From the NCBI GenBank assembly GCA_024683485.1, contig JAIKYD010000057.1, forward strand, positions 1 to 64,000: 64,000 bases of DNA. The letters run 5' to 3'. The DNA comes from Saccharofermentans sp. (GTDB lineage Bacteria > Bacillota > Clostridia > Saccharofermentanales > Saccharofermentanaceae). The position numbers were made by a program, and so were the translations under genes. Under the pieces are notes generated by a model. That model was not told the origin of the DNA. It did no database searches and saw only the letters and a list, made by a program, of their open reading frames with translations. This document shows, piece by piece, positions 8,519-52,250 of this stretch. The number at the start of each line of letters is the position of its first letter. Positions within the stretch are counted from its first letter, which is position 1.

Positions 8519-9056
8519 AACTGACAGACTGATTCTCAGAGACTATGTAACCGGAGATTTCGATGATTACTATAGATTGATGACCGACGATCAGACCATG
8601 TATTACATGAAGGATATTAAGCTTGATTCAATTGAATCTGCTAAGGAAAACTTTGCAAATATATTGAAAGACATGGCGGGTAATGAACGGAAGTATTATT
8701 TCCTTCACATGATGTTGAAAGAGACACAAGAGCAGGTGGGAAGTATTGGATACACTGTTGTCGATAATACTCCTGTCGGTAAGATCGTTCATATGGGTTA
8801 CTTTACCTATCCCAAGTTCTGGGGTAACGGTTACACATCAGAAGCTCTGAAAAAGGTAATCGAATATGCATTTACAGAGGATAATGTGTACAGGATAACT
8901 ACCGGATGTCTTGCAGAGAATAAGGGCTCGGAACGTGTCATGCAAAAGTGCGGAATGATAAAGGAAGCGGAACATGTCGAATACGAATGGCATGATGGCA
9001 GGATGAAAAACCGCCTTGAATACAGGCTGCTTAAATCTGAGTTTGATATATCCTGA
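8505..9056 (+). CDS. GNAT N-acetyltransferase (RimJ/RimL-like)
   Basis: LETDRLILRDY N-terminus; WGNGYTSEALKKVIEYAF; overlaps upstream gene by 14 nt. Confidence 0.85.
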   Translation: MIYLETDRLILRDYVTGDFDDYYRLMTDDQTMYYMKDIKLDSIESAKENFANILKDMAGNERKYYFLHMMLKETQEQVGSIGYTVVDNTPVGKIVHMGYFTYPKFWGNGYTSEALKKVIEYAFTEDNVYRITTGCLAENKGSERVMQKCGMIKEAEHVEYEWHDGRMKNRLEYRLLKSEFDIS

Positions 9057-9262
9057 GAGGCAAACATTGCACCATACAATAAAATATTAAGTTCGTTTAT
9101 GAAGCCGTTAACAAACCAAACAATCTGTTATGGTTCTGTTAAATTGGTCATTTTGATGTGTTGGTGTGGTATTATCCGCCTATAAGATGTGTGATAAGTC
9201 ATTATGTATTTGGCACAGCATTATTATAATGTTAGTTGCAAAACATGACAGGTGGAGCCGTA

Positions 9263-10816
9263 TTGAGTAAGAAACGCAATAAAGGTCTGAGCATAAAGAT
9301 CGTAACTGCATTGTATTCTTCAGCAGTTATTGTTGTATTGACGATTATTACTGTAATCGTCGGTTACAGACTCTATGAGAAACATGTCATGGAGCACTAC
9401 AGCAAGTATACAACGACGGTTCTTGAGTATGCATTCAGTGCTGCCCAGGAGTATTCATTCGGTGATATGATAGCTGACCGGGATATGCCGGATGCTTATG
9501 AACAAATGAGATCAGAATTAAACCATGTTAAGGAGTGTTCTGAGATCGATTATCTCTATGCGGTGTATTTCGATGACATCAATGATATTCACAGTCTGAA
9601 ATACGCTATCAACACCAAGACTGCAAAAGAACTCGAGAATGGCGGAACCTATACCTATCTGGGAACTCCTTGTGAAGAGGGAAGTTTTCAGGAGGATACA
9701 TTGCTTACCCTTCATGAAGCCGTGCTGACCAAAAAGAGGGAAAGCGGTGTTCTTCAGGGCTATTCAGAAGGGTATGGGTACATGTTTAATGGTTATAAAG
9801 TCATTTTTGACAGTAACGATAACCCTGCCGGCCTTTTGTGTGTGGAGATTGATGTCAGTAATATACGGGCTGAACTTAACCGCTACATCCGCAATATTGT
9901 GCTTTTTGTTGCTGCCTTTACGATAATTATCACCATAATATTTGTGGCTTTGTCTGAGTCTTATATTATCTATCCGATCACCAAGCTTACAGAATCTGCA
10001 AAAGACTTTATAAAGAATATCGGCGATCAGGATTCAATCGATAGAAGTGTTAAGGAGTTAAAGTCTATCGATATCCGCCCGGAAAATGAGATTGGCGAGC
10101 TTTATACGACCGTCAGTAAAATGGAATCTGATATGGCTGATCAGTACCGTGATATACGCCAGTATTCCGAAAATGTTATGAAGATGCAGGACGGTCTTAT
10201 CCTGCTTATGGCGGATATGGTCGAAAACCGTGATTCAGATACAGGTGACCATATTCAAAAGACTGCTGCGTATGTAAGGATAATCCTTAGGGGCTTGAAG
10301 CGGAAAGGATACTACCTTGATAAGCTTACCCCGACATATATGGAATATGTGGAAAAATCCGCTCCGCTGCATGATGTCGGTAAGATAAGGATCCCTGATG
10401 CCGTGCTTAATAAACCGGGAAAACTGACTCCTGAAGAGTACGAGATCATGAAGACTCATGCTTCAGCAGGCAAGGAAATAATCAATAAAGCTATCGATAA
10501 TACTGTTGAAGGCGAGAATTACCTCAGAGAAGCTTGCAATATGGCGGCATATCATCATGAACGCTGGGACGGCAAAGGCTATCCGGAAGGCCTGAAGGGT
10601 GAAGAGATTCCTCTGTCTGCCAGGGTTATGGCTGTGGCAGATGTTTTCGATGCCTTGTGTTCGAGCCGCGTTTACAAACCGCCGTTCCCGATCGATGATG
10701 CCTTGAAGATAATCGAAGAAGGTAAAGGAACCCAATTCGATCCGAAGTGTGTAGAGGTCTTCTTGGAGGCACTCCCTGATATTAAAGCTGTGTTGAGAAA
10801 GTACAATAAAAAGTAA
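9263..10816 (+). CDS. HD-GYP domain protein with N-terminal membrane sensor region
   Basis: HDVGKIRIPD and HHERWDGKGYP motifs; two TM helices flanking an extracytoplasmic segment; TTG at 9263 preceded by ggtggag. Confidence 0.85.
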   Translation: MSKKRNKGLSIKIVTALYSSAVIVVLTIITVIVGYRLYEKHVMEHYSKYTTTVLEYAFSAAQEYSFGDMIADRDMPDAYEQMRSELNHVKECSEIDYLYAVYFDDINDIHSLKYAINTKTAKELENGGTYTYLGTPCEEGSFQEDTLLTLHEAVLTKKRESGVLQGYSEGYGYMFNGYKVIFDSNDNPAGLLCVEIDVSNIRAELNRYIRNIVLFVAAFTIIITIIFVALSESYIIYPITKLTESAKDFIKNIGDQDSIDRSVKELKSIDIRPENEIGELYTTVSKMESDMADQYRDIRQYSENVMKMQDGLILLMADMVENRDSDTGDHIQKTAAYVRIILRGLKRKGYYLDKLTPTYMEYVEKSAPLHDVGKIRIPDAVLNKPGKLTPEEYEIMKTHASAGKEIINKAIDNTVEGENYLREACNMAAYHHERWDGKGYPEGLKGEEIPLSARVMAVADVFDALCSSRVYKPPFPIDDALKIIEEGKGTQFDPKCVEVFLEALPDIKAVLRKYNKK

Positions 10817-45531: not shown

Positions 45532-47673
45532 ATGAACAAAAGATCATTTTTCCAGGATGTTGCTTATGCATATTCGTTGCCCTTCCGCAAAGAGGGATTA
45601 AAAGCATTTTTATTTTCCTGTTTGTTTATGTTGATTCCTATAACAGCATTTATCGGTGAAGGAGCTGCTTATTCTGTTGCAGCCGGTAGAAAAGAAGGAA
45701 TAGGAGGATGGGCGAAGCTGGGCCTTAAGCTCATTGCCGTACAGATCATGTATGCTGCTCCTGCTGTCGCAGCTTATGGATTATATTCAATATTGGCTAC
45801 ATATTTATATCTCGGTCTTGTATATCAGTTTATTCTTCTTTTCCTTCTTGTTCTTTGTTCAGCAAGAGCACTTGTGCTGATTCCTGTTGCATCCTGTGCT
45901 GTTGCAATGGGAGCACCACTAAAGATTGCAATAAATGGAAAAGAAATGAATTCCATAATATCAGGAAGCATGGGCAGGTATTTACTGTCAGGTATTATGT
46001 GTTTGCTGATGCTGATTATTTTTGATCTTCCTATGCAAGGAGAATGGCTCATTGTTCTTCAGTATATTCTTGCCTCGATATTTGTGGTTTTATACCGTTT
46101 CTTCAAAGCAGGGCTTTTTATGGGGGTTGTGAGACATTCTCTCGGTATTGCACCACCTTCGGAATATAGAAAGAGCAACGGTGCCAGAATAGGAAAGATG
46201 GTCATATCAGCAGTCTTGTGTGTTGCCCTGATAGGTAATTCTTCATTAAGCGTGTTTGCTACTGGTTTTGATGATGAAAACGGTTTTATAAATTACTATA
46301 GACCAGAAGACGAGGAACCGCAGCCTATTGAGCCGCCAGGACTTGAAGATGTGAGAAATTGGAATAGAAGACCTATTCAAGAATCTACAGGAAAGGATCT
46401 GAATTTGTTATTTAACTTCGCTGGAGATGTTTGCAATGTGACGCCGGTTGTCAGCAATATTAAAAACGGAATTCAAGCTATATATTATTATTATAAGGGA
46501 GTAACTACTACTGATGAAGAACAGAAGAAAGTATACTTTGCAAATTCTTTGTATAAAACGGTTGGAATAATAACTGGTCCATTAACTACGTGGGGAGCTA
46601 AAGTTTTGCAATTTTACGATAAGGCAATGTCTTGGCTTGGCTTTTCTGATGATATATTTGGGACTAAAACGGATGAGTATTTCGGTCCGGTAAAGATCAT
46701 CTTAAAAATTAATGATTTGATGAATGATACGCTAAATAAAGCTGAGGAATATTTTAAACGTGCGGATATTGCATTAGGTGATTTTATAGAATATACAAAG
46801 CGCCGGGTTGCCGAAGGAACGGACTGGTGGCTTACTGAACCGCAGCCACTGCCAGGTCAGAGTGAACTTTTTATAGATAATCCTAACAATCCACTTAACA
46901 CTTCTTACGACAAGAATAACTATGCAGTATCAGAAGGATCATTGGATCTTGACGCTCTTGATGTTGCAGCTAACGCAGAAGAAGAGGATCCGATTGCTGA
47001 TAAACCCGAGTATGACAGTGGAGAAAATAGCAGTGGATCGAATGATGGCCGGAGAGTAAACAATGACAAAACTGCAGAAGACAACAGCGGTGATAAAGAC
47101 GAGATTGATGATGGCATTTCAGCTGATTGGGAAGGAGATAACTTAGGACAGCAGGAGAATATTTTCGATTGTCCGACTGCCATGGAACTTGCCGGATCTT
47201 ATGATAATGGTGTTATTACTTTAAGAGAATACTATATTCCACCTGAACTTCAGAAAGATGAGGAAGATGGTGATGATGGCTGCGACTTTGATATAGATGA
47301 ATATATAGGCAAACCTAATGCCTTCCCGTTTACGCTTGCTTATTCAGATCCAACCACGTTGATCTTTAGTTCAAGCAAGGTAAGTCCTGTATCCGGAACA
47401 TATTCTCCTTATACTGGATTATTGGTAATACCTTCATTTACCATGGAGCAAGATGGAACGAAGATTATAGTATCTATTTCATTTAATCATTGTGCGTTTA
47501 CTGATGAGAGCCACACAGCAGTAGAAGTTTCAGGTACAGTCTTATATGAGTTTACGGGAGAATATAAGGGCGCTTATATCATAGCTGATCTATCCGGAAG
47601 CAGACAGCTTCAGCCAGCTGAAACTGAAACTACTGCCACAGAAGAAGGAGACGAAGAAGAAGGAGACGGCTGA
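45532..47673 (+). CDS. Large membrane protein with acidic linker and unrecognised C-terminal domain shared with the 50385-52250 gene
   Basis: About six N-terminal TM helices, internal signal-like segment VISAVLCVALIGNSSLSVFATG, C-terminal ELAGSYDNG...GEYKGAYIIADLSGS. Confidence 0.7.
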   Translation: MNKRSFFQDVAYAYSLPFRKEGLKAFLFSCLFMLIPITAFIGEGAAYSVAAGRKEGIGGWAKLGLKLIAVQIMYAAPAVAAYGLYSILATYLYLGLVYQFILLFLLVLCSARALVLIPVASCAVAMGAPLKIAINGKEMNSIISGSMGRYLLSGIMCLLMLIIFDLPMQGEWLIVLQYILASIFVVLYRFFKAGLFMGVVRHSLGIAPPSEYRKSNGARIGKMVISAVLCVALIGNSSLSVFATGFDDENGFINYYRPEDEEPQPIEPPGLEDVRNWNRRPIQESTGKDLNLLFNFAGDVCNVTPVVSNIKNGIQAIYYYYKGVTTTDEEQKKVYFANSLYKTVGIITGPLTTWGAKVLQFYDKAMSWLGFSDDIFGTKTDEYFGPVKIILKINDLMNDTLNKAEEYFKRADIALGDFIEYTKRRVAEGTDWWLTEPQPLPGQSELFIDNPNNPLNTSYDKNNYAVSEGSLDLDALDVAANAEEEDPIADKPEYDSGENSSGSNDGRRVNNDKTAEDNSGDKDEIDDGISADWEGDNLGQQENIFDCPTAMELAGSYDNGVITLREYYIPPELQKDEEDGDDGCDFDIDEYIGKPNAFPFTLAYSDPTTLIFSSSKVSPVSGTYSPYTGLLVIPSFTMEQDGTKIIVSISFNHCAFTDESHTAVEVSGTVLYEFTGEYKGAYIIADLSGSRQLQPAETETTATEEGDEEEGDG

Positions 47674-47689
47674 TCAGTTGACATTCTTG

Positions 47690-48397
47690 TTATTGATAAC
47701 TGATCTTTAGAACTTTCTGCCAAACCAATACTAAGATTATGGCTGCGGCTCCTGCTGCAAGTACGGTTATCTGACCGGATGATATAAGTGAACCGTCGTG
47801 GTAATACTTCAGATATTCAAGCAGGAACCGGACCGGGATCGTAACTGCGAGAATAATGTAGATTGCGTGAATCTTGTTGCGCATTTTGGATGTTATGACT
47901 ACTGCGAAAATATGTATAACCAGAAATGCAGCCATATCAACGAGCTGGGCAGGGAAGAATGAACCTGCGTGTTCTCCTCCTAAGTGAACGACAGCGAAAG
48001 GTCCATAATACTCTTTGCCATGACAGCAGCCTGCAAGAAGACACCCTATCTTGGCGAGCGCGTACATCAGAGGAGCGGAAGTGATAAATGAAGCCATTAC
48101 AAGGTCAGGTTTGTCTTTAATGATAATGCCCGAGATAAATACTCCCGCGATCATTCCTACAGCAGCTCCCAAACCCGAGAAACTGACACTGATGCCGTCC
48201 GGAGTTATCTTAAATGTAACGAGAATGGATGTTACCAAAGTGCATATCAGTGTCAGAAGGCATGTGTACTTTATTGTTTGCCAGGCAACTCTGGATCTGT
48301 GCATGCGGAAGACAGCTATTCCAAAACCGGCCACTACTGCAAGGACAACGATCAATGCGTATGGTGACCTGGAAAACTCCGGAATGACTATTTGCAT
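47690..48397 (-). CDS. Prolipoprotein diacylglyceryl transferase (Lgt)-like membrane protein
   Basis: GCLLAGCCHGKEYYGP and FPAQLVD motifs; multi-TM. Confidence 0.75.
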   Translation of the reverse strand: MQIVIPEFSRSPYALIVVLAVVAGFGIAVFRMHRSRVAWQTIKYTCLLTLICTLVTSILVTFKITPDGISVSFSGLGAAVGMIAGVFISGIIIKDKPDLVMASFITSAPLMYALAKIGCLLAGCCHGKEYYGPFAVVHLGGEHAGSFFPAQLVDMAAFLVIHIFAVVITSKMRNKIHAIYIILAVTIPVRFLLEYLKYYHDGSLISSGQITVLAAGAAAIILVLVWQKVLKISYQ

Positions 48398-49009
48398 TTA
48401 GAATCCTTGACAATCTTTAAGCATATAGGCACACATTGCTATCACCAGGATAACGCATATGATCGCTGCAGCCAGTATGCCGATATATACCCATATGAGA
48501 ATTTTCGCAAACTTGCTCTCTTTAAACTTTATTCTTGCAATAATAACCAGGACCCAGGATGCTATGTAAGAACCTCCGATAAGTGTTGACATAAGTGCTG
48601 TGACAGGTTCTACAGCACTGCTGGATGAGGATAATTCCCCAATGTTCTCAAGGAGTGATGACAGTGTACCGGTTAAGACACTCGGAAGGAAATGCAGCCC
48701 AAGAGAGATGAAGCAAAGGATATTGGCTATCTTTCTTCTGCTTGATTTTTGTTCCTGTGACATCATATCAATATCAGAAAGCGGTGCTGCCTGATATGGC
48801 TGGGCCATATATTGAGGCTGTACCTGCTGCTGATAGGGCTGCTGATACTGCTGTTGATACGGCTGCTGATATTGTTGCTGCAAACCCGGTTGATACACGG
48901 GCTGCTGTAAAGGCTGATTGTTAACAGGCTGAACCGGTTGTGCGGGTTGTACAGGCTGTACGGGTATCCCCTGAGGTTCAGAATTATTTATGATGTTATT
49001 GTTGTCCAT
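48398..49009 (-). CDS. Membrane protein with Q/P-rich N-terminal low-complexity region
   Basis: QPVQPAQPVQPVNNQPLQQPVYQPGLQQQYQQPYQQQ then three hydrophobic segments. Confidence 0.7.
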   Translation of the reverse strand: MDNNNIINNSEPQGIPVQPVQPAQPVQPVNNQPLQQPVYQPGLQQQYQQPYQQQYQQPYQQQVQPQYMAQPYQAAPLSDIDMMSQEQKSSRRKIANILCFISLGLHFLPSVLTGTLSSLLENIGELSSSSSAVEPVTALMSTLIGGSYIASWVLVIIARIKFKESKFAKILIWVYIGILAAAIICVILVIAMCAYMLKDCQGF

Positions 49010-49338: not shown

Positions 49339-50388
49339 ATGCCACGATTTTGCAGAAACTGCGGGACTCAGTTAGGTGATGACGGCCGCTGTCCTAATTG
49401 TGGATGGGCTGCACCGTCAGCGTTCACACCAGTGGAGACTCAAGCAAATGTTGCTGCTGTTAAGCCGCGTTTTTGCAGAAATTGCGGAACTCAGATGGGG
49501 ACTGATGGCCGTTGCCACAATTGCGGATATGTTGTTCCGGCACAACATGCAGTTCCAGTACAGCAGGCACAGCCAGTTCAGTCAATTCAACCAGTCCAGC
49601 AAGTACAACCCGTACAACAGGTCCCTGTAGCACCAGTGGTGGCTTCACCGGTTCAGACAACTCCTGTTCAGGCTCCTCAACAGGTCCCCGTTGCCCAAGT
49701 TCAACCGGCACAGGTTCAAGTTGTGCAGCCTGAGCCCAAAAAGAAAAAACAAAAGGCTGCTAATTCCGGAAAGAAGAAAAAAGGATGGGTTGTTCTGATT
49801 CCTATTGGAGTTATTCTTTTAGGTGTGATAACCGTCCTGATATTGAACTTTACTGGCGTTATCCATCTTTTTGGTAAGAATACATCTGCTACATTCAAGC
49901 GTCCTTCGGCAGAAGAGTATTTGTCAAGACTCGGCAAGATTACCAATAAGGATAGTGCGGATAATGTAGCGTTGCTTACTGAGACAGAAGCTTACAAAGA
50001 GTTTAAGTCACGTGGTTTTACCGAGCAGGCAATCGATGCCTATTATGATATTGAAGGCAATTATATCGGATCCGTAGAAATATCACCAGACAGTAAAGAA
50101 AAACATCCTTCTTATCATGTCCTGTACCGCGCCTCTACCGGTATAGTTTGGACTATCGCGCTGACGGGAGATACCTTCTATGCCGAGCCGGTCAGCCTTG
50201 AAGATTCAAGCACTTGGGATGTTCCCAGGGCAATCTCAGAGTCAAATTTCTATTGGGTATATGATGGAAAAGCAAATGCGTATTATACAGTAGATCTGAA
50301 TAATAATGCACTTGTTCTAAAACATGTTAACAGGATCGATACTGCTACACTTGATAAATTGGATGCAAAGGAGATAGACGGATTATGA
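49339..50388 (+). CDS. Bitopic membrane protein with two tandem zinc ribbons, P/V/Q-rich linker, TM and extracellular domain
   Basis: PRFCRNCGTQLGDDGRCPNCGW and PRFCRNCGTQMGTDGRCHNCGY; TM GWVVLIPIGVILLGVITVLIL. Confidence 0.75.
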   Translation: MPRFCRNCGTQLGDDGRCPNCGWAAPSAFTPVETQANVAAVKPRFCRNCGTQMGTDGRCHNCGYVVPAQHAVPVQQAQPVQSIQPVQQVQPVQQVPVAPVVASPVQTTPVQAPQQVPVAQVQPAQVQVVQPEPKKKKQKAANSGKKKKGWVVLIPIGVILLGVITVLILNFTGVIHLFGKNTSATFKRPSAEEYLSRLGKITNKDSADNVALLTETEAYKEFKSRGFTEQAIDAYYDIEGNYIGSVEISPDSKEKHPSYHVLYRASTGIVWTIALTGDTFYAEPVSLEDSSTWDVPRAISESNFYWVYDGKANAYYTVDLNNNALVLKHVNRIDTATLDKLDAKEIDGL

Positions 50389-52250
50389 AAACAATAAAAA
50401 AGCCTATTGTAGTTATTCTATCAGTCTGCATTCTGATGTCTGTTTTCTCTACTTCTGTTTTCGCGGATAAGAAAAAGGAGCCTGTGGACGGCAGGACATA
50501 CCGTAAGGGTGTAAATATGGTATCTATGGGAGATTCTTTTGCCTCCGGTGAGAGCATAGGTTCCTATGGTACGGGAAGTGTTTACGATGAGGATTTTCTT
50601 GCACACCGTTCATATTATTCCTGGTCTTCATTATTGAAACTCCCGGGAAATGGTGGCGGAAGAATGAGGGATTATAAAGGCACAAAGTGGCAATTTGTTG
50701 CTTGTTCAGGTGCTACCACCGAAAACATTTATGGCACTCAGACTAAGGAATATAATCATAATGGTCAAAAAGGCAGCCATGACCTGCCGCCCCAGCTCGA
50801 TATATTCAGCAGCGGGAAAATTGATCCTAAAGAAGTCGATTATGTCACCCTTTCCATTGGCGGTAATGATGTCGATTTTGCCGGTATCATTAAACGCGCT
50901 ACATTGAATATGGAAGGGTATTCCGGTTTCTGTGCAGATGCAATTAGTGACAAGATTAACCACTTTGATGATCCGGGCGGCACAAGGGATAAACTAATTG
51001 ATACATATCGTGCGATAGCAAAACAAGCACCGAACGCAACAATTATAGTTACCGGTTATCCGCCTCTGCTTGATCCAAAGTGTGCAGATGCTCAATTCTT
51101 CAATGAAGATGAAGCTGAATGGGTTAATATGGGTGTTCATTATTTTAATAGTAATGTAAAACTAATGGTTGAAGAATTAAAGAAAGAAGGAATAAAGATT
51201 GAATTTGCGGATATAGAAGCAAAATTCAGGGGACATGAAGCATATTCAAAAGACTCCTGGATCAATGGCCTTGAATTTGGTCCGGATACAAGAGGTGAAG
51301 AACTTGATGACTGGGCAATAACCAGCATGAATTCGATTCATCCAAATTTTGATGGTGTAAAAGCATATGCTGAGTGCGTTCAGGAAGTAATTGACAAGGT
51401 TGAGAAAGAGAAAGAAAAAGAGAGAAAGAAGCTCGGCCTCGATGACGAAGGAAATCCGATAACTGAAGAATCTTCGTCCTCAGAATCATCTGATCCTGAA
51501 GATGTTGTTCCAGATGATTCCAATGTCGAAGAAAAGGAACTTGATTACGGTTATCCGAATGTATATGAGATCGCAGGTTCATATGATGACGGTCTTTTCA
51601 GTGTTACCGATTATGATATACCGGAAGCTGTTCTTAAAAGTATGAATGATAAAGCGGATTTTTGGTCGAAGATGCTTGGCTGTGATGATGAGGATCTCGG
51701 ATGTGAGGTTACTGAAGAGGATATTACTGTTCATGATGCCGCTTATCCGTTTACTCTTGAATATCTTGGTGATAATACTTTTAAATTTACCAGCTCCAAG
51801 TTGGGAACAACTACAGCATATTATGATCCGTATTCAGGCGCACTTAGTGTGGATCCGATCAACTGCTCGGATATGGGAGGCAAAGCCATAGTTAGATTCC
51901 ATCTGACCTGTAATTACGATGATGTGTATTCGAGGTCGGCTGTAATCATAAGCGGTACAGCATCATTTGATTTTGAAGGCGATTATAAAGGTATGTACTT
52001 TGACGGGGATTTCTCCGGTAGCAAGGATATCCCTTATTATGAAGTCGAAGAGACGACTAATGATGACTGGTTTGATGATTGGCCTGACAACAGTGAAGAA
52101 TGGGATCCTGAGTTATGGGATGAATGGGAGCACCCTGAAGATTATGAATTAACAGATGAAGAAAAATGGCAAGGATTAGAAGAAGACTGGGGAGACAACA
52201 GTAAAGACTGGGATCCTGATATGTGGGATGAATGGGAAGAAGGAAATTAA
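50385..52250 (+). CDS. Secreted SGNH/GDSL hydrolase (SEST-like) with C-terminal domain shared with the 45532-47673 gene and a W/D/E-rich tail
   Basis: Signal peptide; SMGDSFASGE, ACSGATT, SIGGNDVDF, SIHPNFDG blocks. Confidence 0.8.
   Translation: MKTIKKPIVVILSVCILMSVFSTSVFADKKKEPVDGRTYRKGVNMVSMGDSFASGESIGSYGTGSVYDEDFLAHRSYYSWSSLLKLPGNGGGRMRDYKGTKWQFVACSGATTENIYGTQTKEYNHNGQKGSHDLPPQLDIFSSGKIDPKEVDYVTLSIGGNDVDFAGIIKRATLNMEGYSGFCADAISDKINHFDDPGGTRDKLIDTYRAIAKQAPNATIIVTGYPPLLDPKCADAQFFNEDEAEWVNMGVHYFNSNVKLMVEELKKEGIKIEFADIEAKFRGHEAYSKDSWINGLEFGPDTRGEELDDWAITSMNSIHPNFDGVKAYAECVQEVIDKVEKEKEKERKKLGLDDEGNPITEESSSSESSDPEDVVPDDSNVEEKELDYGYPNVYEIAGSYDDGLFSVTDYDIPEAVLKSMNDKADFWSKMLGCDDEDLGCEVTEEDITVHDAAYPFTLEYLGDNTFKFTSSKLGTTTAYYDPYSGALSVDPINCSDMGGKAIVRFHLTCNYDDVYSRSAVIISGTASFDFEGDYKGMYFDGDFSGSKDIPYYEVEETTNDDWFDDWPDNSEEWDPELWDEWEHPEDYELTDEEKWQGLEEDWGDNSKDWDPDMWDEWEEGN

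Follow-up and report, generated by a model that had tools for sequence, protein, structure and literature searches.

A C-terminal domain with a conserved loop cysteine in unrelated proteins of Bacillota and its pairing with an Lgt paralogue

The domain and its predicted fold

The stretch of 64,000 nucleotides analysed here (hereafter the window), from contig JAIKYD010000057.1 of the gut bacterium Saccharofermentans sp., encodes two proteins, P0001 and P0002, which end alike and have nothing else in common. Both open reading frames are intact (713 and 621 aa; Table 1) and both end in a homologous, unnamed domain of about 150-160 aa, as confirmed by comparison of the full-length proteins (blastp, E 2e-22), of the two domain segments (blastp, E 4e-27) and of copy 1 with copy 2 by tblastn (E 2.1e-19, 37% identity across 147 aa). 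Nothing alike was found by blastp beyond residues 537-705 of P0001 and 380-561 of P0002, the N-termini being unrelated. The preliminary description had placed one C-terminal domain in two otherwise unrelated proteins, and both parts of this claim, positions included, are borne out by these searches; the length, the richness in beta-strands and the acidic insertion behind the first block are as it had them. It had not recognised the family, and the domain indeed matches none in Pfam or NCBIfam, with nothing found in PADLOC or among PDB sequences and no relatives in viral contigs. P0001 itself matches no family above the cut-off (a DUF4013-like match lies below it, E 0.36), and P0002, like its sister copy, carries a signal peptide without a lipobox. 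After the barrel, P0002 continues into an acidic tail with W/D/E repeats (WDPELWDEWE; window 52040-52250), also present in the sister copy. In the sister species, too, a homologue of the zinc-ribbon protein encoded ahead of P0002 comes before the domain gene (L075 7704-8633 / 8630-10501).

Table 1. Positions in the window of the two domain-bearing genes, the domain copies and neighbouring genes
Feature	Position	Strand	Basis
Gene A (P0001), 713-aa membrane protein, domain at C-terminus	45532..47673	+	ORF; multi-TM N-terminus, extracytoplasmic region
Domain copy 1 (~155-160 aa, predicted eight-strand meander barrel)	47149..47631	+	homology; AlphaFold2 pLDDT 85.2, pTM 0.77
Copy 1 loop cysteine codon (DGCDF, segment residue 45)	47281..47283	+	alignments
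Divergent Lgt-family paralogue (KIGCLLAGCCHG), convergent with gene A	47690..48397	-	PF01790 E 1.8e-11; outside domain-partner clade (trees)
Double zinc-ribbon + TM protein	49339..50388	+	ORF; 4-base overlap with gene B start
Gene B (P0002), 621-aa secreted GDSL/SGNH hydrolase, domain + acidic tail	50385..52250	+	ORF; PF13472 E 8.5e-9
Domain copy 2	51543..52046	+	homology; AlphaFold2 pLDDT 84.6, pTM 0.76
Copy 2 loop cysteine codon (LGCEV)	51702..51704	+	alignments

AlphaFold2 predicted the same eight-strand meander barrel for both copies, confidently (pLDDT ~85) and with identical strand order, namely one strand, a long helical/acidic insertion of low confidence and then seven strands; the two models were built from the same four-sequence alignment and are not independent. 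The structure prediction proposed as a check in the preliminary description thus gave a common predicted fold, while its hint at lipocalins or other lipid-binding folds found only weak support: lipocalins are among the best Foldseek matches (alone for copy 2, and together with the PknI sensor domain and LpqH for copy 1), but neither model has a match at E<=0.001, and the similarity to the lipocalin fold is weak (E at least 0.03, TM at most 0.5). With lipocalins and calycins the domain has in common the predicted eight-strand meander barrel, a short helix, G-x-[WY] (GxW/GxY) at strand A and a long first loop, but it shows no significant structural or sequence match to them, none of 17 domain members matching lipocalins in Pfam. 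The PknI sensor domain (5xlm) and LpqH (4zjm) of Mycobacterium tuberculosis rank among the best matches (prob 0.99 and 0.77-0.82, respectively; TM 0.31-0.47), but they are other proteins and the similarity is not significant (E ~0.03-0.15). Judged from these models, the barrel is weakly lipocalin-like.

Genomic pairing with an Lgt paralogue

Profile searches of the order and the class recovered further copies of the domain in a GDSL protein of the same genus (sister species G040), in a metallopeptidase-like protein (G090) and in genomes G080, G325 and G425. In the last four genomes, the gene following the domain gene encodes an Lgt paralogue (PF01790) bearing the signature R[IV]GCF[LY]NGCC. 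More divergent relatives across Bacillota form the C-termini of metallopeptidases, subtilases, zinc-ribbon or GYF membrane proteins, and lipoproteins. Genes for Lgt paralogues of a single clade (see below) directly adjoin domain genes whose host proteins are unrelated (metallopeptidase, ZU5-like core proteins, subtilase, lipoproteins and GYF-TM proteins), at more than 15 loci of diverse families.

Among 188 genomes of the order and 388 of the class, the clade enzyme is present in every genome with a detected domain, and enzyme matches of E<1e-100 occur only in domain-bearing genomes (4/188 and 3/388, respectively). As the enzyme model was built from domain-bearing genomes, their high scores arise by construction, and what is informative is the lack of comparable matches elsewhere. 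A search of the phylum with the enzyme yielded five further strong matches (G703, G645, G898, G690 and G811), the weaker ones being housekeeping-type Lgts beside lspA or tsaD. In the first four of these genomes the neighbour is a 220-aa lipoprotein, a subtilase, a GYF-TM protein and a 700-aa lipoprotein, respectively, all of which carry at the C-terminus a G-x-W barrel domain whose loop holds a cysteine. The G811 locus is a damaged metallopeptidase type, in which metallopeptidase, domain start and Lgt paralogue run together in one frame (L090 1669-2943, G811:C60) and most of the domain is absent, likely through an assembly error or a deletion. A prediction fixed beforehand was then met in two further classes, where all six new strong matches (G1060, G1057, G1042, G1038, G1044 and G1036) directly adjoin a domain protein, each domain having exactly one cysteine; three weaker housekeeping-type Lgts from these classes, taken as negative controls, have no domain-protein neighbour. 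The pairing of domain and Lgt paralogue is well supported. Within the open-licence part of PubMed Central, to which the literature search was confined, no description of Lgt paralogues with such partners was found.

The domain profile undercounts divergent members, and many of the genomes searched are MAGs. One type that the profile missed belongs to genus g28 (same family, nine genomes), which holds the sister group of the enzyme; when its loci were read again, the enzyme was found to follow directly a lipoprotein of ~770-805 aa with a divergent C-terminal domain; the proteins of G080 and G325 are homologous to it throughout. When profiles were compared directly, the window-type domain showed no significant similarity to the g28 or G703-type domains; the connection between them runs through the D/E/F/G set (E 3e-5 and 6e-5) and through host proteins that are homologous over their full length. 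At g28 loci L065, L066, L070 and L071 (partially in L073), two ABC transporter ATPase-permease genes come after the lipoprotein and the Lgt paralogue, perhaps forming one operon with them.

In the window genome (G000) and its sister G040 the clade enzyme is unlinked to the domain genes, lying in G000 on another contig (G000:C101:28006-28791). The G040 domain gene sits between ECF-transporter and glycine-rich membrane-protein genes, the very slot occupied by the enzyme in G000, which suggests, without proving it, that domain gene and enzyme were once adjacent in the window genus too.

The enzyme clade and the loop cysteine

A tree of 51 Lgt-family proteins places all 23 enzymes associated with the domain in one clade (support 100/99), and the label of domain association changes once in 100% of bootstrap trees. 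The clade includes the unlinked enzymes of G000 and G040 (the latter on C10) and that of G219, whose neighbour is a subtilase cut by the contig end. By profile these enzymes are of the same family as Lgt (PF01790 scores of 104 and 109 bits for the D and E partners, against a cut-off of 24.9; E 6e-25 to E. coli Lgt, 5azb), but they form a separate clade, do not reach the NCBIfam lgt equivalog TIGR00544 (63-87 bits vs 118.9) and are extra to the housekeeping Lgt, a separate stronger Lgt being found in 10/10 genomes searched (G161, G166, G170, G219, G325, G645, G690, G703, G811 and G898). They also differ from it in that their partner is a folded C-terminal domain and not a lipobox; to our knowledge, all known Lgt substrates carry a lipobox at the N-terminus. 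G000 (~82% complete) yielded no housekeeping Lgt of the canonical GNF type, probably owing to missing sequence; G040 has one.

Compared with 5azb, the equivalent of R239 is invariant in the clade and that of R246 is kept, R143 is Arg in most members and Lys in the g28 group, and Y26 and N149 have equivalents in most. N146 and E151 are both replaced by Cys, H103 by Tyr or Met, and E243 by Leu, while C135, C140 and C141 are invariant in the clade. The reading of the GCC signature as the mark of a dead or non-Lgt enzyme was rejected, since G560, G852, G866 and G900 (all at least 95% complete) likewise have GCFxNGCC in their only Lgt, which adjoins lspA in the first two; the signature is therefore compatible with transferase activity and alone gives no sign of lost function. 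At L095, L100 and L152, too, housekeeping-type Lgts have GCFLNGCC where GNFxNxE is canonical; they lie beside lspA and an RluD-type pseudouridine synthase.

On the side of the domain, a cysteine lies in the loop or insertion after the first barrel strand in 23/23 domains inspected, with mostly G/E/D on its N-terminal side and D/E/G on the other (mostly [G/E]C[D/E]). It is the sole cysteine of the domain in 13 cases, for which the chance under uniform placement is ~4e-8, a figure somewhat overstated by treating the loci as independent. The 817-aa protein of G1042 has no other cysteine, and those of G690 and G703 have, besides it, only that of the lipobox. From these counts, an internal disulfide is excluded as the general role of the loop cysteine. 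Copy 2 in P0002 has a second cysteine (LGCDD) seven residues ahead of that in LGCEV. The loop cysteine is at least 100 residues from the C-terminus, the domain has no TM tail, and no lipobox-like hydrophobic stretch was found ahead of this cysteine.

Interpretation of the pairing and the adjacent Lgt-like gene

Lgt has an outward-facing active site and transfers diacylglyceryl groups to cysteine (PMC4728403). We give about even chances to the domain being the module, at the C-terminus, by which a dedicated lipid-modification system recognises its substrates. Host proteins would be exported via a signal peptide, a lipobox or an N-terminal TM segment; the lipocalin-like barrel would fold outside the membrane, presenting one cysteine on the long loop after strand A; and the paralogue, usually encoded beside the substrate gene, would modify this cysteine, most likely with diacylglyceryl from phosphatidylglycerol, as Lgt does for the lipobox cysteine, so that the modified C-terminal end would become tethered to the outer face of the membrane. 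In the window genome, one such enzyme, on another contig, would serve two substrates, P0001 and P0002. A fuller proposal, somewhat less secure, is a tethering system of Bacillota not described before, in which the folded C-terminal barrel, in place of a lipobox peptide or TM tail, directs the Lgt paralogue to lipidate an internal cysteine, so that a single enzyme could anchor several unrelated surface proteins in trans. What the analysis shows is the domain family, its common predicted fold, its pairing with one clade of enzymes and the conservation of the cysteine; the loop cysteine as substrate, the lipid as modification and the anchoring in the membrane are inferred, without experimental support for the chemistry.

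Several observations weigh against lipidation. E. coli Lgt loses activity with R143K, E151A/Q and H103 substitutions including Tyr (PMC4728403), and the clade has Cys for E151, Tyr or Met for H103, an altered E243 and, in g28, Lys at position 143. The partners H, I, K, G1060, G1057 and those of g28 are already N-terminal lipoproteins, for which a second lipid is not obviously needed, the loop cysteine has no lipobox ahead of it, and in G000 and G040 the enzyme is unlinked to the domain genes. An alternative is that the paralogue is a private Lgt serving only the N-terminal lipobox cysteine of its partner, the domain cysteine having another role; lipoboxes are clear in the partners from G703, G645, G690, G1060, G1057 and the g28 group, but those from G325, G898, G1042, G1044 and G1036 carry cytosolic zinc-ribbon or GYF domains at the N-terminus, together with a TM segment, neither P0002 nor its sister copy has a lipobox, P0001 is multi-TM, and what the partners have in common is the C-terminal domain. 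With the separate stronger Lgt in all ten such genomes searched, this explanation appears improbable. Slightly more room, though still not much, is left for a lipid-binding barrel, with the paralogue handling or presenting the lipid or acting as its membrane receptor without covalent modification, and the cysteine contributing to the contact between enzyme and domain, perhaps through a disulfide to the three invariant cysteines of the enzyme. The predicted eight-strand barrel, its weak lipocalin matches and GxW/GxY at strand A would fit such a role, but no structural match falls below E 0.001, and the GCC motif, being common to housekeeping Lgts, needs no partner-specific role. Already very unlikely is an ordinary mobile beta domain, used in adhesion or sensing, whose pairing with Lgt is operon hitch-hiking: its occurrence on many unrelated ectodomains and its separation from the enzyme in G000 and G040 speak for this reading, and the many adjacent loci of diverse families, the single enzyme clade, the co-occurrence and the prediction met in six of six cases speak against it.

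By analogy, the nearest concept to the pairing of domain and Lgt paralogue is MYXO-CTERM, a sorting element at the C-terminus whose invariant cysteine is predicted to receive a lipid from an Lgt-like enzyme, still unidentified; two-gene loci of enzyme and target are reported for the related MrtJ (PMC11980579). MYXO-CTERM consists of a short motif, a TM helix and an Arg tail and is cut by a CPBP protease (PMC11980579), whereas here the element is a folded barrel of ~150 aa without TM or basic tail after the cysteine, and the Lgt paralogue is encoded beside the domain gene. If lipidation by the paralogue holds true, an Lgt paralogue tied to a folded domain with an invariant cysteine would widen bacterial lipoprotein biology to include lipids at internal or C-terminal sites and offer a genetic pair for testing how C-terminal cysteines become lipidated, the question raised for MYXO-CTERM proteins (PMC11980579). 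The occurrence of the pairing across many Bacillota, together with the cysteine in one fixed loop, suggests an undescribed tethering of proteins to the membrane at their far end.

The Lgt-like gene next to gene A (Table 1) was considered as the partner of P0001 and rejected: it falls outside the clade, and the same locus exists in G040 without P0001, so that its adjacency to gene A may be coincidental. Its product scores 44 bits against PF01790, is fast-evolving, with a long branch, and has Lys at the R143 position. It directly adjoins a gene for a Gln/Pro-rich TM protein (48398-49009, - strand), and the pair is kept in G040 beside recN (L026 8580-10010).
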